A stretch of 64,000 nt of DNA. Origin: Eutypella sp. D-1. Taxonomy: Eukaryota; Ascomycota; Sordariomycetes; Xylariales; Diatrypaceae. Below the pieces are notes generated by a model that was given only the letters and a program-made list of their open reading frames with translations, was not told where the DNA came from and made no database searches. The translations under genes and the position numbers were made by a program. The stretch is from positions 1,178,001 to 1,242,000 of the forward strand of contig JAJTTP010000004.1 of assembly GCA_023313575.1 (NCBI GenBank), given 5' to 3'. Positions 5,964-34,910 of the stretch are shown in pieces. Numbering within the stretch: position 1 is the first letter of the stretch; the number at the start of each line of letters is the position of its first letter.

Positions 5964-6862
5964 CTAGTTAATAGTGGGAGTGCCATACGCCACCAGCTGC
6001 GTGCGGCCGCCCACGACAAGCTTCGTGGTATCGATATTGGTCAGCGAGACGGTGATCTTCTTGTCGTCGCGGACGGGGATGTCGATGGGCTGGATCGTAT
6101 AGACGGGGATGACGAGGGGCGCGAGGACCTCACGGATCTGGGGCCGGATCAGCTGGTCGAACAGGAAGCTCTCGAGCGAGCTGAGCAACGGCTTCAGGAA
6201 CGCCGATACGAAGGTCGGGATCGGGCCCCACTGCAGCGAAAGGCTGAACTGCTCGAGCTCCATGTGCGAGAGCTGCACCACGTTGTCGGCCACGCGCGGC
6301 TTCGCCGACACCCCGATCGTGCCCGTCGCCACCGGCCCGAACGAGAAGTTCGGCAGTGGCCACGGCGTGTGCACCGTGATGTTCGCCGCGGCGCGCGCGC
6401 TGATGCTGGCGGACTATCGGGGCGGTGTAAGACGTTAGCATCGCGGGGGCTTTCTCCGTTTGCAAGGGATAGGTATTGTGCATAAGGGAGAGCATTTGGG
6501 ACTTACGATGCTTCCGTCGTCCGAGACATCAACGTCATCGAGCTGGTTGAGACTCAGTCCCAGGTCGCCCGTGAAAGGCCCTTCGTTGAATCCAACGTGA
6601 GGCAGGTCACTTGCTGCCCCAGCAACAGCCTTATTAGCCACAACCGCGATCAAGGACGTGTCGACAGCAATGAACACGCCGTCGCTTGGCCAGCTCACGG
6701 CCTCCGTAGGGAAAGCGGGAGGGACGAGCCCGAGGGCGGTGTAGGCAAGGAGGTAGTTGTTGACGATCTGCACCACTGAAGTATGTCAAAGAGCCAGCGT
6801 TAGCCACCTTCCCTATACCATGATACATACGTAGAGGGCGGGGGTCTACTTACCAGGCACAG
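5964..6862 (-). pseudogene. 3' half of a host gene split by the retrotransposon island (TULIP/LEA-like, unassigned)
   Basis: This fragment holds the last 4 nt of exon 2 (6854-6857, next to the TSD copy 6858-6862), an intron 6776-6853 (GTAAGT...CTTCAG), exon 3 (6507-6775), an intron 6414-6506 (GTAAGT, branch GCTAAC, GATAG) and exon 4 (5964-6413, ending at the stop). Joined with the 5' half at 34160-34910, the exons sum to 1395 nt, exactly 465 codons. The two fragments are therefore one gene, not two paralogues. The sequence is rich in amphipathic strand-like segments. The C-terminal part (LSSLESFLFDQLI followed by TIQPIDIPV) faintly resembles lipid-binding TULIP/BPI-like folds, but I cannot assign a family. 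There is no transmembrane segment. The frame here is intact, so the loss is recent or this strain differs from relatives. Confidence 0.8.
6858..6862. repeat. Target-site duplication CACAG (left copy)
   Basis: CACAG directly precedes the TGTTGG start of the Copia LTR and recurs at 34160-34164 directly after the CCAACA end of the right LTR. It marks the original integration site in exon 2 of the split gene, only 4 nt from the GTAAGT splice donor. Confidence 0.9.
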
Positions 6863-6938
6863 TGTTGGTTGTTAGTGGTCACTGGTATGGACCCATATAC
6901 CAGTAGGAAGTACCTATGTACTTATCTCCCGTTTATAT

Positions 6939-6965
6939 AAGGATACGGGCTTTGCCCGTATCCTT
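6939..6965 (+). promoter_or_regulatory. TATA box plus 12-bp hairpin in the Copia LTR
   Basis: The arm AAGGATACGGGC (6939-6950), a TTT loop and its exact complement (6954-6965) directly follow TTTATATAA. The same stem-loop occurs in the right LTR at 34032-34054 with a TTC loop. Its position just downstream of a TATA box suggests the 5' end of the element RNA (start of R), but that is inference. Confidence 0.6.
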
Positions 6966-7046
6966 TTTAAATAAATAGATAAACTTTAAACCCGAATATT
7001 ATATTAGTTTTATTACTTTTTATTATTATTAATTTTTTTTCCTTTA

Positions 7047-7460
7047 TATAACGGCTGGTCTATTCCTAACTATTAGTCTAGTCGAAGGGTCTATGTTAAC
7101 AGGAGTATTAAAGGTTTTAAGCAATAAGTAATCACGTTTGGTAATAGCAAAAAAAAAGGTGTTTTAAGTAATTAAGTTATATTATAAATTAATAAGCTTA
7201 AAAATTATTTAAAAAAAAGGTAATAAACGTAGTTATATATTATTTATATTTTTTATTCCTAACATTAAAATATGTGGTTATATTAAATCCTTAGATCGTA
7301 ACGGATCTAATTAATACCTTTAAATCCATGGATCATAACAGGTCCATATATAGCTTTTTTTATAGCTTATTAAACGTGGCTGGCTTACGTTTTTATTCTT
7401 TCGGTAATACCGTTAACGAATAGGGTTGCCTGCCCCACTTGGCCTAATCAGGCCATAACA
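7047..7460 (-). mobile_element. Solo LTR of a Gypsy family inside the Copia 5' LTR
   Basis: A 414-bp segment is flanked by CTTTA at 7042-7046 and 7461-7465. Its left 220 bp match the shared end of the Gypsy A/B/C LTRs (complement of ...CCAGCCGTCACA). Its right end reads GGCCATAACA, the complement of the TGTTATGGCC start. There is no internal region, so the element probably collapsed by LTR-LTR recombination. Its U3 half differs from those of the three Gypsy elements in this island, so it is a separate subfamily. Confidence 0.85.
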
Positions 7461-7483
7461 CTTTACGTACGTATTTATTAACA

Positions 7484-8854
7484 TTAATTAATGTTATTAA
7501 ATAAATATAGTAATATAAATTAATAAAGTTAAAAAAGTTATTATTGTAATAACTTAAAGATTTTTATTATTATTTTTTCCCGTCTGTTTTTATAACGGAT
7601 AATAATAAACTTTTTTTTATTTTTATTATTATAAGAATTAACTTTATTATTTAATATATCGGACGATTAATAATAGGCCGAATTTTTAAAAGCCGTTAAA
7701 AAAGTAACTTTATACCGGAGCTTTTTAGTAAATATTAACGTAAAAAGAAATAAAAAAAGTTAAAAATATATTATTTTATTTATTTTATTTTTTAACCTTA
7801 TAATTATAATTTAAATAAAATTCGATTTAATATAAGTTATTAATTATCGATAATTTTAAAGAAATTAATAATAAGCCGGGAATTAGCCGGATAATTAAGG
7901 AGATTTTTAAATAATATTAAAACTATTTTTAAAGATTTATAAAGGCAGATTTTAAAATTATATTAAAAACGTTTCGGTTTATATTAAAAACCGTATTAAT
8001 ATAAAGGGGCGTATATATTAAAAAATATAATGCTAATTTTATAATAATATTAGTTAATTTTATTATATAATTTAAATTTCTAATATAAGATTTTAAAAAA
8101 TTTAAATTAATAAAAAGCCGATGGTTTAACGTTTTAATATAAAAGGTTTTAATTTATAATACGGAATAAGGATTAGTTTATTTATAAATTTATAAATTAT
8201 TTATTTATTTTAATTTATAGCTTAAAATATTTATAAAGCCGCCCGGTAAATTTTAATAATAATTAAAAACTTTAACGGTATAAATTATATTATAAAAAAT
8301 AATAATTTTTATTAGCCCGTTTTTTATAACTGCGCGCCAGTTTTTTCCCCTTAATTTAAATTAATTACTTTTTTTTTTTTAATAAATAATTTTATTAAAC
8401 CTTAGCCCGGTTTTAAAACGTTTAAATTTCCGTAAAATATTAAACGTTTTTTCGGTACTTAATACCTTTTTTCCTTTTAAACGGACCTAATTTTAACCTA
8501 TTCCGTTTACGTAATAACCCTTTTTTATATAATTTATATAACCTTTTTTTACGTAATCTATATAACTTTTTCCTTTATAACTTATTTAATTTCTTTTTTC
8601 CGGGAATATTAATTTAAAATATTTGTATTAATATTTATACCTTTTAAAATATTTTTAACCAGGATACCCTTAGCCTGGATACTTTTAGCTTAAATATTTT
8701 TACGGCTATTTAATTTATCTGTTTTACCCGGGCTATCTTTTTTAGCCAATAGGAAATAATTAATAGCTTTTTAAATAACTATATTTAATAATAAAAAGGG
8801 ATAACCGGACCGTTCTTTTTTTTTTAAATTTAAATTAATTTATATATTACAGGA
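7484..8854 (+). other. Copia internal region, 5' segment (degenerate)
   Basis: This AT-rich sequence lies between the Copia 5' LTR and the Gypsy B insertion. By position it should hold the leader and gag, but RIP has removed any readable frame and I recognise no domain. The segment continues at 22650-23285 beyond Gypsy B. Confidence 0.6.
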
Positions 8855-9293
8855 TGTGACGGCTGGTCTATTCCTAACTATTAATCCAGTCGAGGGGTTT
8901 ATGTTAACAGAAATGCTAAGGGTTTTAAGTAATAAGTAGTTACGTTTGGTAATAATAAAAAAAAAGGTGTTTTAAATAATTAAATTATATTATAAACTAA
9001 TAAGTTTAAAAATTATTTAAGAAAAAGGTAATAAACGTGGTTATATATTATTTATATTTTTTATTCCTGATATTAAAATATATAGTTATTATTAAATCGT
9101 TAGGATAGCTAATTATCCCAGTTATCCTGGATTATTAAAATAGCTGGTTATTTTAGCTATCTTTTTTATTACGTGATTTGGACGTGGTTAACCCATTATG
9201 GTTAGGTTTTTCTGAAAACCTCGTTTTTTCGGATAAGATCGTGATTTATTATTAGCCTTATTTGGCCTTTTATAACCTGATCAGGTTATAACA
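8855..9293 (-). repeat. Gypsy B LTR (3' LTR in element orientation)
   Basis: It aligns with 22211-22649. The outer (left) edge keeps GC-rich sequence (GACGGCTGGTC) where the other copy has A/T. The inner end carries a perfect 22-bp palindrome at 9270-9291 (arm TTATAACCTGA). Confidence 0.88.
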
Positions 9294-11820
9294 TAATTTC
9301 TCCCTTTTTAAGGTTTTTATCTTTAAAACCAATTTTCCCGTTTTTATTATTATAAGTATTTTTTTTTCCTTTTTTATTTTATTTTATCTTTTATTATATC
9401 CGGTTATATTAATAAATCGGTTTTTTAACGCGTAAAACCTTTATTTTAGCGTAAAATTTTTTAACGCGATTTTTTTTTTACGGCGGTTTTATCGTTTAAC
9501 CCGATTAATATGGCTTTTTATTTTTATTATAAACGCCGTTAGTTTAAATATAAAGTTTTTAATTCGGATTTTTTTTGTTATTTATTATATATTCGTTATA
9601 ACCGAAATTAATATAACGTATTTAGGCTTAGTCCGAAGCAATTATAAAAGGTTATATCTTAATATCGAAAATTAAAGTTAAAATTTAAAGCTGTTAAAAA
9701 AGAAATTAATATGGTTAATGCAAGATTTCGTTATTTTCGTTATTAAAAGCGTATATGGTATAAAAAGATAATAAAAGCAGTTTTTTATAATATCGATAAT
9801 TTAAAAAAGTTGGAAAAGTTAAAGGAAAAGGAGTATCGGGCGGAAAATACGCGTTTTACGGGGTTTATTAAAACGTTAATAAATTTTAAAGTTATTCCGG
9901 ATTTTAATTAATTTAAGATAAATATATCGGGTAATTTTGATTAGGATATTATTTTTATTAGCGTTTCCGTCGACGTTAATAAAAATTTTTTAAAAAGCAT
10001 TAAATGTTTATTAAGTAATTAACGGGTTTTTATATATTTTCGGAGTTATTATATCTTTTTTATTTAACTTTATATTTTATTTATTCATTTTTTATTTACA
10101 CGTTTAATATTTTCTTTGCTTCGTATTTATTTATTTTTATTTCGACGTCGTTTCGTTTTATTTTTATAGCGTTTATATCTGTTATGTTTTCGAGTAAGGA
10201 AATATGAAAAATTAAATAAATCTTAACTTTTAATGGTAAGTTTAATTCGTAATTATTTTTTAATATTTTTTTAATAACTAGGTACGGTCCGATATATTTA
10301 TAATCAAGTTTTTTATTAAGTCGTTTTATCGTAATATTTTTTATAATTAAATAAATTATATTTTCCTCCGAAAAGGTTAATCCTTTTAACTTTTTTTAGT
10401 TATAATATCTGTTTATTCGTTAACGTACGAGTTCGAGTTTTTTTTTTATTTTTTTATGTAATTATTTAAGTTATTTTAATATTAATATGGCTTTAATATT
10501 ATCTGGTCCTTTTTTATAAACATCTCGATAAACGTTTAAAGTAAATCCGAAATTAACGTTAATAAATATCGTTCGTATATTTTTATAATAAGTTATATTA
10601 TAAGTTAATTATATAATAAATAATTACTTAATTTAATTATTTTGCTTATAATTAATATATTATTAAAAGTAAGTTTTTAATATTTAGTTAATTCGTTCTG
10701 TTTATTTATTTACTTAAAGTTTAAAAGTTATTATAAGTTTAGGGTTTAGTTTTAATCTTATTATAAAACTTTACCAAAATTTCGATACGAATATCGTTCC
10801 TTTATCGGAAATGATTTCGAATATAAAATTATATATTGTTATAATATGTTATAAAAAAATATATGCTATTTATTTTGCGTCGGTATTTTCGTTATATAAA
10901 ATGAAATAAGAAAATTTTATAAATCGGTTAATAATTATAAATATGTTATTATAACCGTTACGTGTTATTAAATTTTTTAATATCGGTAATTTAGTAATAA
11001 AATCGAATATGATAAATTTTTATAATTGTTTATTAATTAATAATGGTTATAATTCTCCGTAAGGTTTATATCGTTTTATTTTAGTTTTTTCATATATGTT
11101 ATATCGTTATCGTACTTATTATATTACTGATTTTATTTTATCGAATATATAAATCCGTTATAATCGTTTAAGGATTTTATAGTCTTTTAAGTATCCGTAT
11201 AAAAGATGTTTATAAATCTTTTATATTAATTATTCCTACAGTTTTCGTAATACTTATAATTTCTTTATTTATTTTTTTATTAATAATTTATTATTATATT
11301 ATTCGATTTACTTATGTAAATTATTTTAAATAATCCTAATAATAAAAATTTATCGTTATTCTAAGTATTTTTTTAGCATTTATCGGAATATTACGTATTT
11401 AATTGGTATATATTTGTTTTTTATAATAAGCTGTTTATTAATAACGTTTATTTATCCGTTTTTTAATCCTTTTTTATAAATAATGATATAATCGAATTCT
11501 GTAAAATATTCGGCATATCGTAACTGTTTTCCGTTAAAGGTTTAAATAATAAAAAAGTATGTAATATTTTTATGGTTAGTATAAACCTTAATTTAGTGCA
11601 TATTTTTTATAAGGTAATATTTAAATTTTTTAAATGCGTTAACGATAGTAAAAAATTTTTTATCGTAAATTAAATAATTAAGTTCGGTTTTGGTAAGTTT
11701 ATAAAAGTAAAATACGAAAAGGTATAATTTTCCTTTTTTATTTTATTATCTAATTTATGTTCCGAAAATATAATTTAAGGCGTTAGTTTTTAATTTAACA
11801 GGTTTTTTAAAATCGTATAT
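9294..11820 (-). pseudogene. Gypsy B pol, 3' part (integrase and chromodomain remains)
   Basis: Read on the minus strand, this is the decayed end of a Gypsy polyprotein. The segment near 10000-10070 is the counterpart of the chromodomain tail recognisable in Gypsy A (about 17475-17580). Upstream, up to 11820, lies integrase-like sequence cut by the Gypsy A insertion. Stop codons are dense and no protein can be made. Confidence 0.7.
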
Positions 11821-12248
11821 TGTTATGACCTGGCTAGGTCATTGGGCCCAAATAGGATTGGCACAAACAATCCCTGACCATGGCACTGGAAAGGACAGAT
11901 ACGATAAGATAAACCATACTTGGGTCACGTAATAAAAAGGATAGCTTAAATAACCCAATTATCCTAATAATCCTAAATAACCTGGATAACTTAATTATCC
12001 TAATGATCTAACATTTAACATCATATTTTAATGTTAAGGATAAAGGATATAAATAATATATAATTACGTTTATTACCTCTTTTTTAAATAATCTTTAAGC
12101 TTATTAGCTTATAATATAACTTAATTACTTAAAGCACCTTTTTTTTTGCTATCACTAAACGTGATTACTTATTGCTTAAAACCTTAATACTTTTATTAAT
12201 ATAAACCCCTCGATTGGATTAATAATTAGGAATAAACCAGCCGTTATA
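11821..12248 (+). repeat. Gypsy A 5' LTR
   Basis: Its first 120 bp (11821-11940) are almost unmutated and keep GGGCCC and ACCATGGC. The same part of the 3' LTR (18278-18397) is changed at many G and C positions. The U3 part differs from Gypsy B/C, while the distal part is shared with them. Confidence 0.9.
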
Positions 12249-12449
12249 CGTTATAAGCTTTTATTTAATAATATTATTAGCTTTAAGCAATATCCGATAT
12301 TATATTTTTTTTAGGTTAAAACTTTTAATAAGTTATTTAATAATTACTTAAACGAATTAAATAAATCGAATAAACGGTAATTATATTTACGAACTAAAAG
12401 GTTATACCCGTTAAATTTAAACCTAAAAAACCTGGACTTTATAATAACA

Positions 12450-15400
12450 TTACCCCCGTACGACTTTTTCTTACTGCAGCCGTAACTTACCTATATTAAT
12501 AACGTTATATATATATTACGGAAACTGATAAAATTCTTAACATTATATCATATTTTACCGGGGGGATAGCTTAATAGTTTAAACCTATTTTAAATACCTT
12601 CGTAAAGGTAAAAAAGAAAAAAAAATCCACGGAAATTAAACGCTTTTTCGAAAAATATAAAAACTTCGAAAAAAAAATAAAAGCTAATTACGGAAATCCG
12701 AATAAAGCCTAAGCCGTTACGTAATAACTTTTAACCTTTAAATAAAAAAAAACAGCCTATATATACGCCGCATAATTTAAATAACTTATTACTAAAATAG
12801 ATTAAGTTAATAACAAATCCTTTATCGATACGTTTTATTAAGGACTTAAGGACTTGGTTAAAAATGAAATCATTACATAAAATAAACCAGGTGCTTTCGA
12901 TAAATTCGTTACTTTAATAATTAAAATCGATAATAAATAATTTAAACAACGCCAGGAGAAAAAAGGATATTATATACTTAAAAAATTTAAAAAATACTAA
13001 AATAACAAAAATCAAAATTAAAAGCTTACCGACATATTTTACGGGACGGCATTAGGATTTATATTATTCGATATGATACGAAAAAATAAATAACAAATTA
13101 AATGCTATAATTATAACAAAATAAAATATTTTAAAAAAAAATATAAAAAACTTAAACGAAATATAAATTAAAAACTTATACCCGAAAAAAAGCAACCTTT
13201 TATTAATAAAAAAACGTTCGGAATAATCCGCCGCGTATACTCGGATAGTAATATCCGTTAATAAAGATTATAAAAAGCCAAATAATTAACTTAAGCCGCC
13301 GCAAAACGATAACGCTAATAATAATAAAACGAATACCTTGATAGCGATAAAAAAAAAGCTTTCGCGGAAACTTATTACGTAAAAAAAAAAAAGATAAAAT
13401 AATTAATTAATTAACTTAAAAAATAACAAAACTATAAATTAAAAAAAATATACGGCATTTACGTTAAACGATCCTAATAACGCCTTAAAAAGTAACGATT
13501 TAAAATTTACTTATAATAATTTCGTAACTAAAATAAATTTATTAATTAAAAAATTTAAACTCGGACATTATATTTTTTAAAATACCCCGTTAATTATCGA
13601 AAATATAAATGCTATTAACATAAGGAACGAAAAATCGGTATTATTAACCGAATTAAATAAATAATTAAAAAAGGATTCGATTTTTTATAATAAAAAAAAA
13701 ACAAAACCGATCGATAATGGTATAAAAAAATTCGGCGCTATTATAACCGCGTACCGTATAAATGGAAATGGCCAGAAAAAATATCCTGCCCCGGAAGATA
13801 TTAGGCATGTTATTATAACAAATATACCTATTAAACGTTAAAAGCCATAAAGATCCGGAACGAAATCGAATAATAAAAACATAAAATCCGATATTAGAAA
13901 AATAAGTTATTAAACGCCGACCTATATACGTTTAAAAATTTATTAAAAAGAATAACCTTTAGTAAAATTAGCCTTAAATATCTTTATAAAAATTTAAAAA
14001 CAGAAAAATAACCATATACATAAAAAAAATCCAGCAAAAAAAAACTTTATAATAACCCGTATAACGCCGTATAAATTTACGGCAAAGATTTAAAAAAATA
14101 AAACCGCCTGTATTAAAACTATAAAGCGGTATTATAAAGCTTAAAAACGTAATATAATATTTATAAGCTATTTTAAAAGCCTAAAAATAATATAAACATA
14201 TCATAATACGAATAAAAGTTAAAAATAACTAATACACCGTTATAATAAATAACGGAACCGACGGTAATTATATAACCTTAAAATTATATAATAAATTATA
14301 GCTATTATAAAAAAAAAAACAACACCTTTATAACATAACAGGAGCCGAAAATTATGCTTTTAAATACGATAAAAAAAAAGTATTATAAAAAACCGATTAA
14401 CTTAACGTATATATCGAAAAATAGAAATAAAACGTTATTTTCGATATTATGCCTTTAAAAAAATACGACATAATCTTTAAATAACCATGGCTATATTAAT
14501 ATAATCCATCGATTAATTAAAAAATTAGCCAAATAATATTTCCTTATTTTTTAAAAACCGACGATAACTTAAAAAAAAGATCTTAATATTTAACGGATAA
14601 CAAATACGGACATAAAAACACGACAAAAACCTTATTAAAAAAAACATAACGAATTAAAAAAAAAAAACACGAAAAAAGGACTAAATAAATTATCGCATTT
14701 ATCCGATAACGATTCCGCCTTTTTAATAACATCCTAAAAAAAGAAAATACGATAATATTATAAATACGTAACGTATTACTATAATATTATTAATACGATA
14801 AAATGTTTCGCGAAAAATTTAAAAAAGGACTATTATAACATAATAAATAAAATTACGAAATTATTTTAATAAAAAAAAAAACGTTACGATTTTATAAAAT
14901 CTATAACCTTAACGAAATTAAACTTAAAAAATTACGAAAATACCTCGAAAATAAGTTAATAAAAAAATATATTTAACAATTAAAATTATTAACAAAATAC
15001 CTTATTATATTTATGCCTAAAAAAAACGGCAAACTATAACTAATAATCGATTACTAATAATTAAATAAAATTACTATTAAAAACCGAACACCGTTACCAT
15101 TTATCATTAAAATAAAAAACCGCTTACACGGAGCCAAATAATTTATTACTTTAAATTTTAAAAATAGGTATTATTATATTAAAATTAAACCCGGAAACGA
15201 ATAAAAAATAGCTTTTAAAATAAAATACGGCTTATTTAAATATTTAATTATGTTTTTCGGATTAATTAACGCATTAACATTATTTTAACGCATAATTAAC
15301 CACGTTTTACGAAAATATTTTAATGTTTTTATTATTTATTATTTCGATAATATCTTTATTTACTCGGAATTAAAGGAATAGCATAAAAAGTATATATATA

Positions 15401-17600
15401 AAATATTATAAACATTATAAAACGCTAACTTATTAATAAAACCCGAAAAAAATATATTTTATATATAAAAAATGGAATTCCTCGGACATATTATTACCCC
15501 CGAATATATTAAAATAAACCTTAAAAAAATCGTAATTATTAAAGATTAAAAAATGCTTATTAATATAAAAAAAATATAAACCTTTTTCGGTTTAACAAAT
15601 TATTATCGGAAGTTTATATAACGATTTAAACATATTATAACACCCTTTACGGAATTAATAAAAAAAAATAAACAGTTTATATAAATTAATAAAATAAATA
15701 AATCTTTTAAAAAATTAAAAAACGTTATTATTAACGAATTAATACTTATTATATACGATTTTAAAAAACCCGTTAAGCTAAAAACCGACGCCTCGGATTA
15801 CGCCTTCGGAGCATAAATTAAATAACGAAAAAAAAAAAAAAAATTATACCCTATCGTATTTTACTCTTATAAACTTATTAAAACCGAACTTAATTATTTA
15901 ATTTATAACAAAAAATTTCTTACTATCGTTAACGTATTTAAAAAATTTAAACATTACTTTATAAAAAACATGCATTAAATTAAGGTTTATACCGACCATA
16001 AAAACATTATACACTTTTTTACCACTTAAACCCTTAACGGAAAACAGTTACGATACGTTAAATATTTTACGGAATTCGATTACATTATTATCCATAAAAA
16101 AAGATTAAAAAACGGATAAATAAATATTATTAACAAACAGCCTGCTATAAAAAAAAAATATATATTAATTAAACACGCGGTATTCCGATAAACGCTAAAA
16201 AGATACTTAAAATAATAATAAATAGCTGTTATTAAAATTACTTAAAATAATTTACATAAATAAATCGAATAACATAATAATAAATTACTAATAAAAAAAC
16301 AAATAAAAAAGCTATAAATACCATAAAAATTATAGGAACAGTTAATATAAAAGATTCACGAATATCCTTTATACGGATACCCGGGAAACCATAAACTTTT
16401 TAAACGACTATAACGGACCTATATATTCGATAAAATAAAATTAATAATATAATAAATACGATAACGATATAACATATATAAAAAAACTAAAATAAAATAA
16501 TATAAACTTTATAAAAAACTATAATTATTACTAGTTAATAAATAATTATAAAAATCCATTACATTCGATTTTATTATTAAATTACTAATATCAGAAAATC
16601 TAATAATATGTAACGGTTATAATAGCATATTTGTAATTATTAACCGATTTATAAAATTTTCTTATTTCATTTTATATAATAAAAACACCGACGTAAAACA
16701 AATGGTATACATCTTTTTACGACATATTATAATAATACACGGCTTTATATTTAAAATTATCTCCGATAAAGGAATAACATTCGTATCGAAATTTTAATAA
16801 AATCTTATAATAAAATTAAAACTAAACCCTAAATTTACGATAATTTTTAAACCTTAAGTAAACGGATAAATAAAACAAATTAATTAAATATTAAAAACTT
16901 ACTTTCGATAGTATATTAATTATAAATAGAATAATTAAATTAAGTAATTACTTATTATATAATTAGTTTATAACATAACTTATTATAAAAATATACGGAT
17001 AATACTTATTAACGCTAATTTCGGATTTACCCCGGACGTTTACCGAAATGCTTATAAAAAAAAACCAAATAATATTAAAGCCATATTAATATCGGAATAA
17101 CTTAAATAATTACATAAAAAAATAAAGGCAAAACTCGAACTCGTACGTTAATAAATAAACAAATATTATAACCAAAAAAGGTTAAAAAAATTAACTTTTT
17201 TAAAAGGAAATATAGTTTATTTAGCCATAAAAAACATCAGGACAAAACGACCCAGTAAAAAATTTAATTATAAATATATCGGACCGTACCTAATTATTAA
17301 AAAAATATTAAAAAATAATTACGAACTGGATTTATTATTAAAAATTAAAATTTATTTAATCTTTTATATTTCCTTACTTAAAAACGTAACAGATATAAAC
17401 GTTATAAAAATAAAATAAAACGATATCGAAATAAAAACAAATAAATACGAAATAAAGAAAATTTTAAACATATAAATAAAAAATGGACGAATAAAATATA
17501 AAGTTAAATAAAAAGGATATAATAATTCCGAAAATATATAAAAACCCGCTAACCACTTAATAAACGTTTAACGCTTTTTAAAAAATTTTCATTAACGCTA
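12450..17600 (+). pseudogene. Gypsy A gag-pol polyprotein remains (RIP-inactivated)
   Basis: The decayed frame contains a Gag with a broken zinc knuckle near 13100-13150, where cysteines became tyrosine (CYNYNK), as expected from G-to-A changes in TGC. Reverse-transcriptase motifs follow (about 15150-15600: IKIKPGNE, then YGLFKYLIMFFGLINA, then FLGHIITPE). The RNase H start reads LKTDASDYAFGA (about 15780). The integrase core is at about 16600-16800 (ISDKG near 16763). A chromodomain-like tail lies at 17475-17580 (KGYNNSEN, tryptophans lost). Many in-frame stops, mostly former TGG, CAG or CAA codons, make it non-functional. Confidence 0.85.
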
Positions 17601-18277
17601 ATAAAAACGTTAATAAAAATAACATCCTAATTAAAATCACCCGATATATCTATCCTAAACTAATTAAAATCCGGAATAACCTTAAGATTTATTAACGCTT
17701 TAATAAACCCCGTAAAACGCGTATTTTCCGCCCGACGTTTTTCTTCCTCTAACTCCTTTAAATTATCGATACCATAAAAAACCGCCTTTATTATCTTCTC
17801 GTACCACATACGCTTTTAACGACGTAAACGGCAAAATTTTATGTTTATTTTAAAAATCACCTTCTCGGCCTTTTCCTCCGTAACCTTAAGTTCCAATTTT
17901 AGTTTTCGATATTAAAATATAACTTTTTACAGTTACTCCGGACTAAACCTAAACATATCGCATTAACTCCGGTTATAACGAATATATAACAAATAATAAA
18001 AAAAATCCAAATCAAAAACTTTACATTTTAATTAATAACGTTCGTAATAAAAACAAAAAGCTATATTAACCGGATCGGATAATAAAATTGCCGCAAAAAA
18101 AAAATTACGTTAAACAGTTTTACGCTAAAATAAAAAAATCGCACGCTTAAAAATTAATTTATTAACACGATTAAACATAATAAAAAAAATATAAAATAAA
18201 AAAAAAAAATACTTACAGTAAAAAAAAAACAAAAATAATAAATTTTAAAAATAAAAACCTTAAAAAAGGAAAGATCG

Positions 18278-18705
18278 TATTATAACCTGGCTAAATTATT
18301 AAGCCTAAATAGGATTAACATAAATAATCCCTAACCATAGCATTAAAAAAGATAAACATAATAAAATAAGCCATATTTAAATCACGTGATAAAAAGGATA
18401 ACCTAAATAACCTAACTATTTTAATAATTTTAAATAACCTAAATAGCTTAGTTATCTTAATAATCCAACATTTAACATTATATTTTAATATTAGGGATAA
18501 AGGATATAAATAATATATAGTTACGTTTATTACCTTTTTCCTAAATAATTTTTAAGCTTACCAGCTTATAATACAACTTAATTACTTAAAGCACCCTTTT
18601 TTTTATTATCACCAAACGTGACTACTTATTACTCAGAACCCCAGCACTTCTGCTAACATAGACCCCTCGACTGGACTAATAGTTAGGAATAAACCAGCCG
18701 TCATA
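18278..18705 (+). repeat. Gypsy A 3' LTR
   Basis: It aligns with 11821-12248. The start is strongly RIP-changed, while the last 115 bp (about 18590-18705) keep GC-rich sequence such as CCCCTCGACTGGAC. This is the mirror image of the pattern in the 5' LTR. Confidence 0.9.
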
Positions 18706-18710
18706 TATAT

Positions 18711-21700: not shown

Positions 21701-22210
21701 TAAGTTGCCCTTTTTTATTTAAAGGTTAGGAGTTATTACGTAACGGTTTAAACTTTATCCGGATTTCCGTAATTAGCTTTTACTTTTTCCTCGAAATTTT
21801 TATATTTTTCGAAAAAGTATTTAATTTCCGTAAATCTTTTTTTTTTTTTACCCTTACGAAGGCATTTAAAATGGGTTTAAACTATTAAGTTATCCCTTCG
21901 GTAAAACATAAAACGATATCGAAAATTTTATCCGTTTCCGTAATATGCATATAACGTTATTAATATAGGTAAGTTACGGTTATAATAAGAAAAAGTTATA
22001 TAAAAATAATGCCATTATAAGGTTTAAGTTTTTTAAACTTAAATTTAATAAGTATAACCTTTTAGTTTATAAATATAGTTACCGTTTATTTAATTTATTC
22101 GATTCGTTCGAGCAATTATTAAATAATTTATTAAAAATTTTAGCTTAAAAAAGACATAATATCGGATATTGCTTAAAGCTGATAATATTATTAAATAAAA
22201 GTTTATAACG
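18711..22210 (-). pseudogene. Gypsy B gag-pol, 5' part (gag, protease, RT, RNase H remains)
   Basis: Read on the minus strand, the segment near 18960-19000 decodes to the same FLGYIITPE-type motif seen in Gypsy A. Reverse-transcriptase sequence extends to about 19450. Gag-like sequence lies near 21000-22100. The segment ends at the Gypsy A insertion point and continues at 11820. RIP-type stops are frequent. Confidence 0.72.
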
Positions 22211-22649
22211 TATAACGGTTAATTTATTTTTAATTATTAATCCAATTAAAAGGTTTATATTAATAAAAGTGTTAAAAATTTTAAGTAATAAGTAATTACG
22301 TTTAGTGATAATAAAAAAAAAGGTGCTTTAAATAATTAAATTATATTATAAGCTAATAAGTTTAAAAATTATTTAAGAAAAAGGTAATAAACGTAGCTAT
22401 ATATTATTTATATCTTTTATTCTTAATATTAAAATATATAATTATTGTTAAATCGTTAGGATAGCTGGTTATCCCAGCTATCCTGGATCATTAAGATAGC
22501 TGGCTATTTTAGCTATCCTTCTTATTACGTGATTCGGACGTGGCTAACCCATTATGGCTGGGTTTTTTTAAAAACCTTATTCTTTCGGATGGGATCGTGA
22601 TTCGTTATTGGCCTTACTTGGCCTTTTATGACCTGACCAGGTTATAACA
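22211..22649 (-). repeat. Gypsy B LTR (5' LTR in element orientation)
   Basis: It aligns with 8855-9293. The outer (right) edge, about 22500-22649, is well preserved and the inner (left) part is strongly AT-shifted. It ends at TAACA before the TAGGA TSD copy. Confidence 0.88.
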
Positions 22650-23285
22650 TAGGATTTAAATAGTTTTTATATTAACTTTCGGCGTTACCCCCTTTTTAAG
22701 TAATTATTTTAAATAAAGGACCGGGGCCCGTAAAAACTTTAAAAGGTTACGATTTTTTTTTTTAAACGGTACTTAAATTTATCCCGGGATTTAACCTATT
22801 ATTAAAACGGATATTTATATTTATTAATAATTAATAAAAGCAGATTTATTATATTATCGCGCCGATTAATGTTTTAAATAAATTATATTTATCGATTATT
22901 ATAAAATAATTTAAAAAAGTTTAAAATAAAAAGAATAATTATACGGGAAAAGTTTATAATATTTTAAAAAATAAATTCCGTTTTTTTTTAATATATATTA
23001 TATTAACGGTATCCGGTAAATATAATTTTATGCTATATTTTTAATTATTTTATTAAAACGTATAACATTATATTTTTTTATAACCTTTTTTATTATTTAA
23101 TATTTACCGATATATATTTTATTATAAAACGTTATTTTAATACCGAATAAAATAAAATTTAATATTATTATAACTAAACTTTTACGATTTTTTTTAATAT
23201 TAAAGTTAAAAACGTAAATAAAAGCAATTTAAAAATATTTTAAATTATATTTAATAAACTTTTTTTATATTAAAAAGTATTAAAG
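22650..23285 (+). other. Copia internal region, middle segment (degenerate)
   Basis: This is a 636-bp piece of the outer Copia between the Gypsy B and Gypsy C insertions. It is AT-rich without a readable domain. It is identified by position and by the TSD copies at both ends (22650-22654 and 23281-23285). Confidence 0.6.
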
Positions 23286-23724
23286 TGTTATGACCTGGTC
23301 AGGTTATGAAAGGCCAAGTGGGGCCAATAACGAATCACGATCTTATTCGAAAGAACGAGGTTTTTAAGAAGACCTAGCCACAATGGGTTAACCACGTTCG
23401 AGTTACGTAATAAAAAGGATAGCCAGGATAGCTAGCTATCTTAATAATTTAAGATAGTTAAGATAACTAATTATCTTAACGATTTAACAGTAATTATATA
23501 TTTTAATGTTAAAAATAAAAGATATAAAATAATATATAGCTACGTTTATTACCTTTTTTTTAAATAATCCTTAAATTTACTAACTTATAATATAATTTAG
23601 TTATTTAAAGTATCTTTTTTATTATTATTATTAAACGTGATTATTTATTATTTAAAACTTTAACATTTTTATTAATATAAACCTTTCGATTAAATTAATA
23701 ATTAGGAATAAACCAGCCGTTATA
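23286..23724 (+). repeat. Gypsy C 5' LTR
   Basis: The first 120 bp or so keep GC content (GGCCAAGTGGGGCC) while the matching part of the 3' LTR is AT-shifted. It aligns with 29710-30147 and with the Gypsy B LTRs over its whole length. Confidence 0.9.
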
Positions 23725-23929
23725 CGTTATAAACTTTTATTTAATAATATTATTAACTTTAAGCAATATCCGATAAAATGTTTTTTTTAAGTTAAAAACT
23801 TTAATAAATTATTAAATTATTACTTAAACGAATTGAATAAATCGAATAAACGGCGATTATAGCCGTAACTTAAAAAATTACACTTATTAAATTTAAACTT
23901 AAAAGATTTAAACCTTATAATGGTATTAC

Positions 23930-26900
23930 CCCCGTATAACCTTTTTTTATTATAACCGCAATTTATTTATATTAATAACGCCATATATTAACCGAAAAAA
24001 CCGATAAGATTTTCGATATTATTTTATATTTTACCGGAGAAATAACTTAATGGTTTAAACCTATTTTAAATATTTTCGTAAAAATAAAAAAAAAAAATTA
24101 CGGAAATTAAACGTTTTTTTAAAAAATATAAAAACTTTATAAAAAAAATAAAAGCTAATTACGGAAACCCGGATAAAGCCCGAGCCGTTATATAATAACT
24201 TTTAAACTTTAAATAAAAAGGAATAATTTATATTTATGCCGCGTAATTTAAATAATTTGTAATAAAAACTGATTAAAAAAATAATAAATCCTTTATCGAT
24301 ACGTTTTATTAAAGATTTAAAAATACGGTTAAAAATAAGATTATTTTATATAATAAATTAGGTATTATTAATAAATTTATTACTTTAATAATTAAAATCG
24401 ATAATAGATAATTTAAACGACGTTAAGAAAAAAAAGGATATTATATATTTAAAAGATTTAAAAGATATTAAAATAATAAGAATTAAAATTAAAAACTTAT
24501 CGATACATTTTACGGGACGGCATTAAAACCTATATTATTCGATATGATACGAAAAGATAAACGGTAAATTAAATGTTATAATTATAATAAGATAAGATAT
24601 TTTAAAAAAAAATGTAAAAGATTTAAACGAGATAAAAATGAAAAACCTATACCCGAAAAAAAATAACCTTTTACCGGTAAAAAAACGTTTGGAATAATTT
24701 ACCGCGTATATTCGGATAATAATATTTATTAATAAAAATTATAAAAAGTTAAATAATTAATTTAAGCCGTAATAAAATAATAACGTTAATAATAATAAAA
24801 TAAATACTTCGATAACGATAAAAAAAAAGCTTTTACGGAAGCTTATTTTATAAAAAAAGAAAACGGAATAATTAATTAACTGGTTTAAGGAATAATAAGA
24901 TTATAAACTATAAAAAATGTACGGCATTTACGTTAAACGATTTTAATAACGTTTTAAAAAATAACGATTTAAAATTTATTTATAATAATTTCGTAATTAA
25001 AATAAATTTATTAATTAAAAAATTTAAACTCGGACGCCGTATTTTTTAAAATTCCCCGTTAATTGCCGAAAATACGAATATTACTAATATAAGGAACGAA
25101 AAATCGGTATTATTAACCAAATTAAATAAATAATTAAAGAAGGATTCGATTTTTTATAATAAAAAAGAAACGAAACCGATTAACGATAGTATAAAAAAAT
25201 TATACGTTATATTAACCGCGTACCGTATGGTTAAAAATGGTTAAAAAGGATATCCTACCCCGGAAGATATTAAGCATGCCATTATAATAAATATATATAT
25301 TAAACGTTAAAAGTTATAAAAATCCGGAATAAAATCGAATAATAAAAATATAAAATCCGATATAAAAAAAATAAATTATTAAACGCCGACTTATACGTTT
25401 ATAAGGATTTATTAAAAAAAATAACTTTTAATAAAATTAGTTTTAAATATTTTTATACAAATTTAATAATAAAAAAATAACCGTATATATAAAAAGAATT
25501 TAATAAGGAAAAATTTTATAACAACTTATATAATACCGTATAAATTTATAATAAGGATTTAAAAAAATAAAGCCGTTTATATTAAGGCTATAAAGCGGTA
25601 TTATAAGGCTTAAAAATGTAATATAATATTTATAAACTATTTTAAAAACTTAAAAACGATACGGATATATTATAATACGAATAAAGGTTAAAAATAATTA
25701 ATATACCGTTATAATAAATAACGGAGCTGATAATAATTATATAATTTTAAAACTATATAATAAGTTATAATTATTATAAAAGGAAAAATAATATTTTTAT
25801 AATATAACGGGAACCGAAAGTTATGCTTTTAAATATAATAAAAGAAAAGTATTACGGGAAACCGATTAATTCGATATATATATCGAAAAATAAAAATAAA
25901 ACGTTATTTTCGATATTATGCTTTTAAAAGGATACGATATAATTTTCAAATAATTATGGCTATATTAATATAATTTATCGATTAATTAAAAAACTGGTTA
26001 AATAATATTTCTTTATTTTTTAAAAACCGACGATAATTTAAAAAAAAGATTTTAATACTTAACGGATAATAAATACGGATATAAAAATATGATAAAAACC
26101 TTATTTAAAGGAATATAACGAATTAAAGAAAAAGGATATAAAAAAAGGATTAAATAAATTATCGCATTTATCTGATAACGATTCCGCTTTTTTAATAATA
26201 TCCTAAAAAAGGAAAATAAAACGATATTACAAATGCGTAACGTATTATTATAATATTATTAATACGATAAAATGTTTTACGAAAAATTTAAAAAAGGATT
26301 ATTAAACCGTAATAAATAAGATTATAAGATTATTTTTATAAAAAGAAAAGACGTTACGATTTTATAAAATTTATAATTTTAATAAAATCGAATTTAAGGA
26401 ATTATAAAAGTATTTCGAAAATAAATTAATAAAAGGATATATTTAACGATTAAAATTATTAATAAAATATTTTATTATGTTTATACTTAAAAAAAACGGT
26501 AAATTACGATTAATAATCGATTATTAATAATTAAATAAAATTACTGTTAAAAACTAAATATTATTATTATTTATTATTAAAATAAAGGACCGTTTATACG
26601 GAGCTAAATAGTTTACCACTTTAAATTTTAAGGACGGATATTACCATATTAAAATTAAACCCGGAGATAAATAAAAAATAGTTTTTAAAACGAAATACGG
26701 CTTATTCGAATATTTAGTTATGTTTTTCAGATTAATTAACGTATTAACATTATTTTAACGCATAATTAATTACGTATTACGAAAATATTTTAATATTTTT
26801 GTTATTTATTATTTTAACGATATTTTTATTTATTTAAAATTAAAGGAATAACATAAAGAATATATATATAAAGTATTACAGATATTATAAAATGTTAATT

Positions 26901-29000
26901 TATTAATAAAACCCGAAAAAAATGTATTTTATATATAAGAAATGGAATTTTTCGGATATATTATTACCCCCGAATATATTAAAATAAACCTTAAAAAAAT
27001 TGCAATTATTAAAAATTAAAAAGTATTTATTAATATAAAAGAAATATAGGCTTTTCTTAATTTAATAAATTATTATCGGAAGTTTATACGACGATTTGGA
27101 CATATTATAACATTTTTTACGGAATTAATAAAAAAGGATAAACGGTTTATATAGATTAATAAAATAAACAAATTTTTTAAAAAATTAAAAAATATTATTA
27201 TTAACGAATTAATATTTATTATATACGATTTTAAAAAACCTGTTAAATTAAAAACCGACGTTTCGGATTACGTTTTCGGAGTATAAATTAGATAATAAGA
27301 TAAAAAAGGAAAATTATATTTTATTATATTTTATTTTTATAAACTTATTAAAACCGAATTTAATTATTTAATTTATAATAAAAAATTTCTTATTATCGTT
27401 AATGTATTTAAAGAATTTAGATATTACTTTATAAAAAATATGCATTAAATTAAAGTTTATACCGATTATAAAAATATTACATATTTTTTTACCATTTAAA
27501 CCTTTAACGGAAAATAGTTACGATATGCTAAATATTTTACGGAATTCGATTATATTATTATTTATAGAAAAAGATTAAAGAACGGATAAATAAATGTTAT
27601 TAATAAATAATTTATTATAAAAAAAAAGTATATATTAATTAAATACGCGGTATTCCGATAAATGTTAAAAAAATATTTAAAATAACGATAAATTAGTGCT
27701 ATTAAGATTATTTAAAATGATTTATATAAATAAATCGAATAACATAATAACGAATTATTAATAAAAAAGTAAATAAAAAAATTATAAATATTATAAGAAT
27801 TATAAAAATAATTAATATAAAAGATTTACGAATATCCTTTATACGAATATTTAAAAGATTATAAAATTTTTAAACGATTATAATAAACCTATGTATTCGA
27901 TAAAATAAAATTAATAATATAACGAATACGATGATAATATAATATATACGGAAAAATTAAAATAAAACGATATAAATTTTACGGAGAATTATAACTATTA
28001 TTAATTAATAAATAATTATAGGAATTTATTATATTCGATTTTATTATTAAATTACCGATATTAAAAAATCCAATAATATATAACGGTTATAATAGCATAT
28101 TTATAATCGTTAACCGATTTATAAAATTTTTTTATTTTATCTTATATAATAAAAATATTAATATAAAATAAATGGCATATATTCGAAATTATCTCCGATA
28201 AAGGAATAATATTCGTATTAAAACTTTAATAAAATTTTATAATAAGATTAAGATTAAACCTTAAACTTACGACAGCTTTTAAATTTTAAATAAACGGATA
28301 AACGGAACGAATTAATTAAATATTAAAAACTTATTTTCGATAATATATTAATTATAAATAAAATAATTAAGTAAAATAGTTATTTATTACATAATTAGCT
28401 TATAATATAATTTATTATAAAAGTATACGGATAATATTTATTAACGCCAATTTCGGATTTACCCCGGACGTTTACCGAAATGTTTATAAAAAAGGACCAG
28501 ATAATATTAAAATTATATTAATATCGGAATAATTTAAATAATTACATAAAAAAATAAAAGCAAAACTTAAATTTATACGTTAACGAATAAATAAATATTA
28601 TAACTAAAAAAGGTTAAAAAGATTAATTTTTTCAGAAAGAGATATAGTTTATTTAGTTATAAAAAATATTACGATAAAACGATTTAATAAAAAACTCGAT
28701 TTTAAATATATCGGACCGTACCTAATTATTAAAAAAATATTAGAAAATAATTATAAATTGGACCTATTATTAAAAGTTAAGATTTATTTAATTTTTTATA
28801 TTTCCTTATTTAAAAACGTAATAAATATAAACGCTATAAAAATAAGACGAAACAATGTCGAAATAAAAATAAATAAATACGAAATAAAAAAAATTTTAAA
28901 CGTATAAATAAAGGATAAACGAATAAAATATAAGGTTAAATAAAAAGGATATAATAATTCCGAAAATATATAAAAACCTGTTAATTACTTAATAAATGCT
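23930..29000 (+). pseudogene. Gypsy C gag-pol polyprotein remains (RIP-inactivated)
   Basis: It is the counterpart of the Gypsy A coding region. A gag-like region begins near 23930, reverse transcriptase lies around 26600-27100, RNase H starts near 27250, integrase lies near 28080-28500 and the chromodomain-like tail near 28910-29000. An internal deletion near 28170 removes part of the integrase relative to Gypsy A. The sequence is full of in-frame stops. Confidence 0.82.
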
Positions 29001-29709
29001 TAACGTTTTTTAAAAATTTTTTATTAACGTTAACGGAAACGTTAATAAAAATAATATTTTAATTAAAATTACCCGATATATTTATTTTAAATTAATTAAA
29101 ATCTGGAATAACTTTAAAATTTATTAACATTTTAATAAACCCCGTAAAACGCGTATTTTCCGCTTAACGTTTTTCCGTTTTTAACTTTTTTAATTCCTTT
29201 AAATTATCGATATTATAAAAAACCGCCTTTATTATTTTTTTATATTATATACGCTTTTAATAACGAAAGCGACGGAGTTTTATATTAACCGTATTAATTT
29301 TTTTTTTCGTAACCTTAAGTTTTAACTTTAATTTTTAATATTAAAATATAACCTTTTATAATTATTTCGGATTAAGCTTAAATATATCGTATTAACTCCG
29401 GTTATAATAAATATACGATAAATAACGAAAAAAGTCCGAGTTAAAAACTTTATATTTAAGTTAACGGCGTTTATAATAAAAATAAAAAGCTATATTAATC
29501 GGATTAAATAATAAAACCGCCGTAAGAAAAAAATTGCGTTAAAAAATTTTGCGTTAAAATAAAGGTTTTACGCGTTAAAAAACCGATTTATTAATACGAC
29601 CGGATATAATAAAAAATAAAATAAAATAAAAAAAGAAAAAAAGATATTTATAATAATAAAAACGGGAGAATTAGTTTTAAGGATAAAAACTTTAAAAGAG
29701 GAAAGATCG

Positions 29710-30147
29710 TGTTATAACCTAATTAGGTTATAAAAAGCTAAATAAGGCTAATAATAAATCACGATTTTATTCGAAAAAATAAGGTTTTTAAAAAAATTTA
29801 GTTATAATAAGTTAATTACGTTCGAGTCACGTAATAAGAAAATAGCCAAGATAACTAGCTATCTTAATAATTTAAAATAATTAAGATAGCTAATTATTTT
29901 AACGATTTAATAATAATTATATATTCCAGAGTTAAAAATAAAGGATATAAAATAATATATAATTACGTTTATTACCTTTTTTTTAAATAGTCTTTAAGTT
30001 TACCAGTTTATAATATAATTTAATTATTTAAAGCACTTTTTTCTTTGTTATTATTAAACGTGATTATTTATTGCTTAAAACTTTAGCATTCCTGTTAACA
30101 TAAACCCCTCGATTGGACTAATAGTTAGGAATAGACCAGCCGTCACA
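29710..30147 (+). repeat. Gypsy C 3' LTR
   Basis: It aligns with 23286-23724. Its outer end (about 30085-30147) retains CCCCTCGATTGGACTA and the terminal CCGTCACA, while the inner part is mutated. Confidence 0.9.
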
Positions 30148-33100
30148 TAAAGCCCGATTTCCGAAAAAAATAATAATTAATCGCCGTTATATATTAAGTT
30201 TACCGTATAATCTTTTAATTTTAACATATTTTTTTCGAACTTATTATTTATTTTAAAAATTTAATAAATAAATTTCGCGCTTTTATCGGCATTTATAAAA
30301 TTATAAAAAAAGTTAATTAATATATGGTTAATAAAGATAATAATAACGATAATAACGATAACGAAAATGGTGCCTTTTATATTAATTATAAATATTATCA
30401 AAATAATAAAAGCGGGAAATATTATTAAAAATAAAACAAATTCGACCGATAATAAAAGCGTAAATACTAAGTACGTAAAAAAAAAGATATTAATTTATTA
30501 AATATTTAAAACAGGAACGTAAAAAAGCGAAAATTTAATAAAAAGTTAAAAAGGTATCCCGCCGTAATAATTATATTGCTTTTTTTATTAAGTATAAAGG
30601 AAATAAACCCGTTTTAAAATATAAAAAAAAAGGATATCGCGGAATATTTTAATTATTTAAATAATGGTTAATATTTTACGGTTATTTACTTATTTAATTA
30701 AGCCTTTTAATATCGAATCGATTTTTGTTTACCGGTTATAAAAAATAATACCTTTAATATTATATTTATTTTAAATAAATATATTAAAAACATGTTTTAA
30801 AAAATTATGCCGGATATAAGTACGGTTAAAATATTTATTACCGGGAAAGAATAATATTTTATTTTAATAAAAAATACCTTAATTAATAATTAAAAATAGA
30901 TAAAAATCGTATAAAAAAAGTTAATATTTGTTTCGGAAATAAACCCCGTATTAAATTATTCGGTATAATTTTAGTTAATACTTTTTTCGGTTCAATTAAT
31001 TTTTACGTAATAAAAATAAATATTTTATTTTTAATATCGATTAAAAATATAAATCGATTTGGTATATATTTTAATAACGTTATTAATTAATTAATCGGGA
31101 AAAACGGCGTAATAATTAATATTATTTAAAAATAAGGATATTTATAATTTAAATTTAACGATATTATTTATTTTATAAAAGTAAAATTACGTAAGATTTA
31201 TATACGTTTCGGATATTTATTTATTAATAAGTTATACGATTTTTTAAATAAGGTAAAATACGATATCGAAATTAACGTTTTTAAAGAAATTAATAAGTTT
31301 TGTTATTATTATTAAATTAAAAGTAAAGCATTTTAAAGGTTTAAATTTAATTTAAAAGATTTAAAAGTAAATATTAACTTTAAGGTAATTATTAATATAA
31401 TATATTTAAATAAAAAGCTTATTTTTTACGTTATCGATATAATTATAAGGTTTTAAATAATATATTTTATAAAAAATATATTAATTAAAAAAATATAAAA
31501 TATATTTAAAAAATATTAAATCGATATATATTTAAAACCCCCGGATATTATTATTTATAACGCCGGTACAAATTTTAATAATACCGAGTTCCGTAATAAA
31601 ACACGTTTTATCGGGATTATTTATTATTAAGTATTAATAAAGGCATATTAATTTATCGGTAAAATGGAAAAATATTATGGTTTTATCCGTAAAGTTTATA
31701 AAATTATTATTAAAAGATTTAAAAATATTAAATTAAAATTATTACGTTTATAAATGGTAATAAAAACAGTTAATAATATAATTAATTTTAACGGCTTTAT
31801 CTTTATTTTATTAATTTTTAAAGCTTATTTTCGAATTAATATAGATTTATTTTTTACATTTATATAAATTTAAAAAGTTTAAATAATATAAAAGGTTATA
31901 ACGGAAGTTAAAAAAATTAAAGCATAAAAATCGATTTAAAATGCGTTAAATATTAAAAATAGCCTAAATATGTATAAAATACTTTTAAAATTATTCCTTT
32001 TAAATAATAAGGTATTTATATATAAAAAAAAAAGATAAAAAAGTTTATTTAAAATTATTACGGTAATTAATAAAAATATAACGGTGGATTTAAAAATAAT
32101 AAAAAGTATAATAACTTTCCGGAGCTTATATATTAAATTTTATATTTAATTAAAAAAAGCCTTTATTTAAAAAAAGCCAATAATTATCCCCGGCGAAAAA
32201 ATTAAAATAATATAAATAAATTTTTAATACGTTAATATTAAAGAAAAAAACGATAAGGTATTAACTTTTAAATTAAAAATAAATAAAATGATTATAACGT
32301 TTAAAAAGTTATTTAAAGCTTTTAATTTTAAAAAATTAAACGCTTTATTTAAAAAAAGCATTTTATAACTTAAAATATATAACGTTATTATATATTAAAA
32401 CATAACAGTTTTTAAGTTAAAAATAGTTCGTAAAATAAAAAGTAAAAATATTTTATCGTTATATAAGAAATTACGATTAATCGTATAAAGTTATAAAAAC
32501 CCCGATAAGATTTTTATTATAATTTATATACTTATTATTTAATAAATTAATTAACGCTTTATTTTAATAATAGCCTTTATTTTACGGCTTAAAAAAATAA
32601 AAATTATAATATAAAATATTATTATAGCTTATATTTAATTTAAAATATTAATATAACGGATTATTTTTATATAATTACTTACCGAATTAAAAAATAAATA
32701 CCTTAAAAGGATATTATTACATGTTATTAAATTATTATACGGATTTATAAAATTAAGCATTTATTAATTTAAGATTTATTTATAACATTATTAATAAAAA
32801 TTATATATAAAATTATTAGTTTTTAATTTTTATTTATTAATATCGGATTTAAAATTATTTAAAATTACGGGATTTTAAATAAATAACATATTTAATATTG
32901 GCATTACGGATTTTTTAATTTTAAAAAATAAGGCATTTACCGAAATAAAAATTAAAACATATTTATAAAAAATATTAAAAAACGGATCGACCGAAAATTT
33001 TAATAATTTATAAATTATTATATGCAAATATAAAGTAATTATTATATAAAAAGGATAAATTAAAAAGTTAAAACTTTTAAATATAAAAGCACCTTTTTAA

Positions 33101-33953
33101 AAATTAATAAAAAAGTATGTTAAATAATAAATACGTAAAGTTTATATCGTTTTTATTTATTAATTAAAAGCTATTTTCGATTATTCCACGGTAACATAAT
33201 ATATTAAACCCGGTTTTAAAAAAGTTAAAATATTAAACGTTAAAATTAAATGGTAAATAGATAATAAAAACCGTGGATTTAATTATATCGAATTAAATTT
33301 TATAAAACTAAAGTTATACGTATTTATGAACGGTTTATTTATTAATAATAAAAATATAAGTTTATAAATCGGTTATATTATCGTTTTAAGTAATAAAAGA
33401 TTAAAGGATTATAATAATAAATTTAATATTAAAAATAATATTATTTATTAATCGTTTATTAAATATAAACGTGTTATACGTAATATTTTAACTAATAAGA
33501 TATATGGCATAATTTAAGGATTTAATATAGGCTATATTATTTATTATACGTTAAATATTATTTTAACCCGGTTATTATTTTTTTACGTTTTATTAATTTT
33601 ATATACCGATTTTTTTTTATATTAATATTTAATATAAATAAATAATATTAATAAAAAAAGGTTAATAATCGATTTAATAACGTTACGGCAATTTTATAAA
33701 AATAAAGAAATTAACGATATTTAATAAATTTATAACATTTATAATCCTGTTAATACCATAATAAAAGCCACTTTTAATAAAATTATAAAAACGTTTATCG
33801 AAAATAACCAGATTATTTTAAAACTAAAGGGATAAATAAAATAGGAATAATATTATTAACGTTTATTACTTAATTATTTATTTATTTATTCGTTTATTTT
33901 TTATTTTAATAACATTTCGTAATTAGTTAATTACGAAAAGAAAATAAAATAAA
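30148..33953 (+). pseudogene. Copia pol remains (integrase, RT, RNase H)
   Basis: This is the decayed 3' coding part of the outer Copia. Around 31555-31760 the + strand translates to an integrase-like sequence (AGTNFNNTEFRN, then IGKMEKYY), close to the C-terminal core of fungal Copia integrases. Around 33310-33500 it translates to RNase H of the Copia type (FINNKN, IGYIIVLSNK, IKYKRVTR). I did not resolve reverse transcriptase motifs between them. Stops are frequent and the gene is dead. Confidence 0.75.
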
Positions 33954-34159
33954 TATTAATTATTAATGGTTATTAGTATAGACCCATATATTAGTAGGAA
34001 GTACCTATGTACCTATCTCCCGTTTATATAAGGATACGGGCTTCGCCCGTATCCCTCTCAGATAGATAAATAAACCTTAGACCCGAATACCACACCAGTC
34101 TCACCACCTTTCATTATTGTTATTGTTATCTCTTTCCTTTACGTACGTACCTACCAACA
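33954..34159 (+). repeat. 3' LTR of the Copia element
   Basis: It aligns with the 5' LTR (6863-7046 plus 7466-7483). It starts with the RIP form TATTAATTA where the left copy has TGTTGGTTG. The last 130 bp are GC-normal and end CCAACA. It carries the same TATA box and stem-loop (34032-34054). Confidence 0.9.
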
Positions 34160-34910
34160 CACAGACATTTGAAATCCGTCAAACCCGAGAATGGGAACCG
34201 CCATGGGCTTGAGGATGTCCTGTCGGGGCTTTAGGTTAGCAATGGGGATCTGCACAAACTACTCCGGCAGAGGAGGCCCACCTACGTTGTTAAGCTGGGT
34301 CCGGAGATAGGGCACGATGGCGCTATTGAGGATATCGTCGAGGTCGGGCTTGTCGGTGCTGATGGTGCCGCTCTCAGCCTGGAATCGGATGCTCGGGGAG
34401 GCGCCGGCGTCAATGGACGCCAGCGTGGTCAGCACCAGCTTCGCCGTCATCGCGAGCGGCTTCTCGCCGGGGTCGCTGTAGTTGAGTTGCAGCTGGATGC
34501 CCGGGACCACGATGTCGAAGTTGATGTTCGACACGGCGGCCAGCGTGCTCGTCACGATGGCGTTCCGCTCGTTCGCGTCTAGGTCCGCGAAGCCCGGGGC
34601 ATTCTTCACCCCCTCGGTCACCGTGCTGAGGACATGGTCGGGAACGCCCAAGGGCTGGACCACATTTTGTCAGCGGTTCCGCAAAGGTGTAGGTTCAGTA
34701 GCATCAAGGTCAGTGGCAGTGGGAAGCACGCACGGTAAAATCCACCGTCGGAGACTGTGCGATGTCGACGTGGACACTCGCGAAGCCTACTGCGCCGATG
34801 TCAATGTCGAAGGTGAAGAGACCTGCCGCGCTGAGGGCTTTGAAGAGCTGGGGCAGGAGGGCATTCACGGTGTCCTGCCCAGCACCGAAAGCAGCATCGA
34901 ATGGAGCCAT
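34160..34910 (-). pseudogene. 5' half of the host gene split by the retrotransposon island
   Basis: Exon 1 is 34734-34910 (ATG at 34910, 59 codons). The intron is 34655-34733 (GTGCGT, branch GCTGAC, CAG). Exon 2 is 34160-34654 and runs into the Copia. The reading frame continues correctly into the fragment at 5964-6862 once the 27-kb insert and one TSD copy are removed, giving a 464-residue product with one internal stop. That stop (34259-34261, codon 191) reads TAG where the context expects CAG. This is a C-to-T change in CpA context, the RIP preference, and lies about 100 bp from the element. The N-terminal part (MAPFDAAFGAGQDTV) has no signal peptide. The family is unassigned, possibly a lipid-binding TULIP-like fold. 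Confidence 0.82.

Follow-up and report, generated by a model that had tools for sequence, protein, structure and literature searches.

The closest described systems are a group of lipid-binding proteins and a retrotransposon. The available text of one source gives intracellular fungal proteins of the tubular lipid-binding (TULIP) type, such as S. pombe SPAC32A11.02c, a length of 500-1200 residues, and for the CETP/BPI/PLUNC family it mentions a length over 450 aa and ascomycete homologues (PMC5507252). The available text of another reports that full copies of the element crapaud in Podospora are mutated by repeat-induced point mutation (RIP), and that solo and fragment long terminal repeats (LTRs) mostly are not, likely owing to their small size (PMC10787394). 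Here we analyze a 64-kb stretch of DNA (the window) from contig JAJTTP010000004.1 of Eutypella sp. D-1, positions 1,178,001 to 1,242,000, whose source assembly comprises 48.5 Mb in 72 contigs. We conclude that it very probably holds one host gene whose third exon was hit by an LTR retrotransposon, termed O, with later nesting of other elements and RIP, and that the gene encoded a product of about 442 residues with a TULIP-like C-terminal domain.

A host gene split by an insertion

Two fragments on the minus strand, 34910-34160 and 6862-5964, now lie 27 kb apart. The DNA between them forms an AT-rich block of 27.3 kb, with a G+C content of 14-25% across the 1-kb bins that span 7001-34000, compared with 42-65% in the surrounding DNA. 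The first-pass annotation had read the fragments as a single gene, and their coordinates and strand were confirmed. Pieces of both fragments, joined by an X at the insertion point, were used as query, and only one of the 7999 candidates scored had E <= 0.01: P0007, an intact hypothetical protein of 454 aa from Stachybotrys elegans (E 2.6e-147, 55% identity). The five exon pieces, from both fragments, are colinear on P0007 (53-66% identical), and BLASTP of each against it gave E values of 2e-49 to 1e-5 (single comparisons). Homologues covering one fragment only had been named beforehand as the sign of two separate genes; the intact P0007 spans both. Judged on this colinearity, the two fragments belong to a single host gene that an insertion has split. 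The parts of the gene and its borders are as follows.

34734..34910, minus: exon 1, 177 nt, 59 codons, ATG start; 64% identity to P0007 residues 1-59
34655..34733, minus: intron 1, 79 nt, GTGCGT...CAG
34286..34654, minus: exon 2, 369 nt, 123 codons; 60% identity to P0007 60-182; relatives P0005 and P0006
34220..34285, minus: intron 2, 66 nt, overlooked earlier; contains TAG at 34261-34259
34160..34219, minus: upstream part of exon 3, 60 nt, 20 codons, cut by the insertion; 60% identity to P0007 199-218
6858..6862 and 34160..34164: two copies of the 5-bp target duplication CACAG
6854..6857, minus: final 4 nt of exon 3, past the duplication
6776..6853, minus: intron 3, 78 nt, GTAAGT...CAG
6507..6775, minus: exon 4, 269 nt; 66% identity to P0007 222-298
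6414..6506, minus: intron 4, 93 nt, GTAAGT...TAG
5964..6413, minus: exon 5 and stop codon, 450 nt; 53% identity to P0007 320-450; most of the TULIP-like region

The insertion lies 4 nt before the GTAAGT donor of intron 3, as had been noted at first pass together with the duplication. A gene of four exons and 465 codons had also been proposed. Its arithmetic is correct (1395 nt, or 465 codons counting the stop), but the frame is not open, because TAG 34261-34259 falls within exon 2 as it was drawn. That stop lies in a 66-nt segment with a GTAGGT donor, a branch-like CTAAC 20 nt before its end and a CGACAG acceptor. The length of the segment is a multiple of three, and therefore the four-exon frame carries on after it. 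Furthermore, the predicted proteins P0005 (95% identical) and P0006 (77% identical) keep exon 2 and end eight and six residues, respectively, past the exon 2/intron 2 boundary, which would be expected if an open frame reads on past a splice donor; the end of P0005, which comes from an 811-bp contig, coincides with the TAG position in the window. The better model is thus one of five exons, in which removal of 34285-34220 leaves 177 + 369 + 60 + 4 + 269 + 450 nt, i.e., 1329 nt, which makes 443 codons when the stop is counted. The coding frame, previously described as almost undamaged, is intact in this model, and the insertion is its sole lesion. Open frames alone say little, because each of the four exons tested stays open in 2 to 17% of shuffles.

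A search of the whole assembly with P0007 gave four matches, all at the split locus, and therefore no intact copy was found; as far as the searches show, the gene is single in the assembly. An open frame of 599 aa for an MFS (major facilitator superfamily) transporter, at window positions 2968-4767, adjoins the broken gene.

The inserted elements

The block ends in TGTTGGT...ACCAACA and is flanked on both sides by CACAG, and its first and last stretches are mutual copies (145 identities in 182 aligned columns), which together indicate the insertion of an LTR element: paired LTRs, TG..CA ends and a short target duplication are all present. The island was resolved by self-comparison and by checks of element ends and target duplications, and it contains three more elements, E1, E2 and E3, which belong to one family.

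6863..34159: insertion, O with its nested elements, 27,297 bp
6863..7043, plus: left LTR of O, with an approximate inner border, shortened by adjoining sequence
33960..34159, plus: right LTR of O, with an approximate inner border; many related genome copies
8855..22649, minus: E1, inside O and interrupted by E2; target duplication CAGGA/TAGGA (C/T difference)
18966-19448, minus: RVT_1 match of E1, 8 stops
11821..18705, plus: E2, inside E1; target duplication TATAT
15016-15495: RVT_1 match of E2, 10 stops
23286..30147, plus: E3, inside O; target duplication TAAAG
26483-26965: RVT_1 match of E3, 9 stops

Each of the three E elements combines an LTR pair, a target duplication and one RVT_1 domain, and hence has the make-up of an LTR retrotransposon. 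Because the nested elements have ends and target duplications of their own, the order of events can be read: O entered the gene, E1 and E3 then entered O, and E2 entered E1. No RVT_1 or RVT_2 match was found within the parts of the island assigned to O, with 150 of the 152 RVT_1 candidates scored, and heavy RIP may hide one. In the whole genome, four of the 149 RVT_1 matches lack an internal stop by our count. One stop-free match (G000:C71:1700409-1700888) lies in an open frame of 549 aa and scores 139.4 bits, compared with at most 87.9 for the other 148.

The right LTR of O has at least 41 matches across the genome, with 40 of 200 candidates scored. Among 30 fetched loci, the window copy included, we counted 12 with AT-rich DNA on one side and 18 flanked on both sides by GC-rich DNA within 1.5 kb; the latter are read as solo LTRs. 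Abutting the left LTR of O is an E-family part-LTR of about 249 bp (at about 7044-7294), and the approximately 1.5 kb that follow it within 7044-8854 did not match E1-E3 when the island was compared with itself. The segment 7044-8854 is possibly another nested or non-autonomous element.

RIP and the age of the insertion

The composite RIP index is positive in every island bin from 7001 to 34000 and negative in all nine bins from 34201 to 36000; in the left flank it ranges from -0.80 to 0.08 across the four bins of 6001-6800. Within columns 5-165 of the alignment of the two outer LTRs, we counted 31 differences, every one a transition; the gapped columns beyond 165, which contain transversions, were excluded. 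The island thus has both the transition bias and the positive index of RIP-mutated DNA. Since 30 of these 31 transitions place A or T on the LTR part facing the island (also our count), the outer ends of both O LTRs look largely unmutated and high in GC, and the island-facing ends look RIP-mutated. RIP ends within the LTR edges, and the frame of the broken gene was left intact.

As RIP differences are no clock, transversions were counted. The LTR pairs of E2, E1 and E3 have 0/426, 0/441 and 2/435, respectively, which would fit recent events. Values are higher between different E-family copies: E2 and E3 differ by 116 transversions in 6810 positions, and the two parts of E1 differ from E2 by 46/2936 and 40/3922. 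The outer pair of O has 3/175 (1.7%) in a short alignment with seven gap columns and with transversions in its gapped end. That the frame is undamaged suggests a recent break. The suggestion that the disruption is recent remains plausible as regards the E pairs, but it is the O pair that dates the break.

The predicted protein

The product would have about 442 residues and a TULIP-like domain at its C-terminus. In the model of a homologue, the C-terminal half, which corresponds to the left-hand fragment, shows a TULIP-like fold, a class marked by a long helix and a beta-sheet rolled into a tube, and binding of lipids by the protein is probable. A TULIP-like nature had been suggested at first pass; structure prediction and fold search bear it out for this half of the homologue, but gave no confident model of the N-terminal half. 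That annotation had also found no family to name, and the profile searches agree: P0007 matched no Pfam family at E <= 10, in a search whose filters drop most weak matches, and the five window pieces and P0001-P0006 gave nothing above cut-off, the sole matches, at 0.015 and 0.013, being to Calycin_like and falling short of its threshold. No PDB chain matched by sequence, and neither did the CETP/BPI family profile. An initial MAFFT alignment placed the end of exon 2 (P0007 160-180) against the C-terminal helix region of exon 5 (P0007 398-415), which hints weakly that the protein may be internally duplicated and perhaps has a second TULIP-like half.

Alternative explanations

Several observations weigh against the interpretation given above. 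The full-length test depends on a single homologue. At the place of intron 2, P0007 carries 16 residues, and hence a coding segment there is a slight possibility. The left flank is not cleanly RIP-negative, as five intergenic bins in 5001-6000 have positive values (0.07-0.97), perhaps reflecting base composition or what is left of an older repeat. As regards a recent date, E1-E3 arrived after the gene had been broken, and at face value the O pair (1.7%) is not younger than the divergence among the E copies. Finally, the structure model is weak, with a mean predicted local distance difference test score (pLDDT) of 48.6 and a predicted template modelling score (pTM) of 0.38. The 16 best Foldseek chains have root mean square deviations of 4.5-13.9 and target TM-scores of just 0.18-0.48, and most residues of the N-terminal half are below pLDDT 50, which bears on the two-barrel arrangement of CETP/BPI.

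The extra residues of P0007 would also suit a decayed four-exon pseudogene with two lesions, the second being a premature TAG produced, for example, by RIP leaking past the LTR. That stop is 100 nt from the LTR, and a stop shared with P0005 would fit the common end point. Yet the segment carries a canonical donor, CTAAC and acceptor, the more distant P0006 also ends just past the boundary at a different residue, and the RIP index of 34201-34400 is -0.80; we consider this explanation unlikely. A misassembly that wrongly put the island inside an intact gene is highly improbable: repeats are where assemblies fail, but both borders have exact duplications and LTR termini and the nested elements carry duplications of their own. 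It is scarcely credible that the fragments are separate genes flanking the island by chance, for which only their present 27-kb distance speaks. This is already contradicted by P0007, and the target duplication and LTR geometry and the continuity of phase across the junction argue against it as well, as do P0002 (matching exon 5) and P0006 (matching exon 2), for both of which the longest contig given is 2505 bp, consistent with a single contig.

A clean but ordinary insertion of an LTR element into an exon is thus the most likely type of event. In the course that we propose, O inserted into the third exon, followed by E1 and E3 into O and E2 into E1, and RIP made nearly the whole insert AT-rich while sparing both gene halves. 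The upstream part would be translated two codons into the LTR before a stop, giving 204 residues (59 + 123 + 20 + 2), and the result would be a null allele of a gene whose product probably binds lipid; loss of function is presumed. Since the frames are unbroken on both sides, the transposon might instead have caused gene fission, with the 204-residue N-terminal protein and, driven from the other side, a TULIP protein both separately expressed and functional. The insertion does separate the N-terminal half from the TULIP-like one, but we regard such an outcome as very unlikely.

Comparison with known systems

With the insertion into an exon as the preferred explanation, the locus offers a well-resolved case of an LTR element disrupting a fungal gene, and the nested target duplications show in what order the events took place. 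It also directs attention to an uncharacterised group of fungal proteins with a TULIP-like domain for which Pfam gave no match; should uninterrupted alleles be segregating in the species, the locus would be a natural knockout for this group.

As far as the available text on crapaud goes (PMC10787394), the two systems are alike in that full copies are RIP-mutated and short solo or fragment LTRs mostly retain a high GC content. Unlike crapaud, O sits within an exon of a host gene. Regarding the protein, the accessible description of the SPAC32A11.02c type (PMC5507252) shares with it one TULIP-like region near the C-terminus, but the proteins here have about 442-454 residues rather than 500-1200, and no Pfam match above cut-off. 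With the CETP/BPI/PLUNC family, as portrayed in the same text (PMC5507252), it shares a similar length and, in the homologue's model, the fold class of the C-terminal half, where the modelled TULIP-like region is located; it differs in having no Pfam or PDB sequence match.
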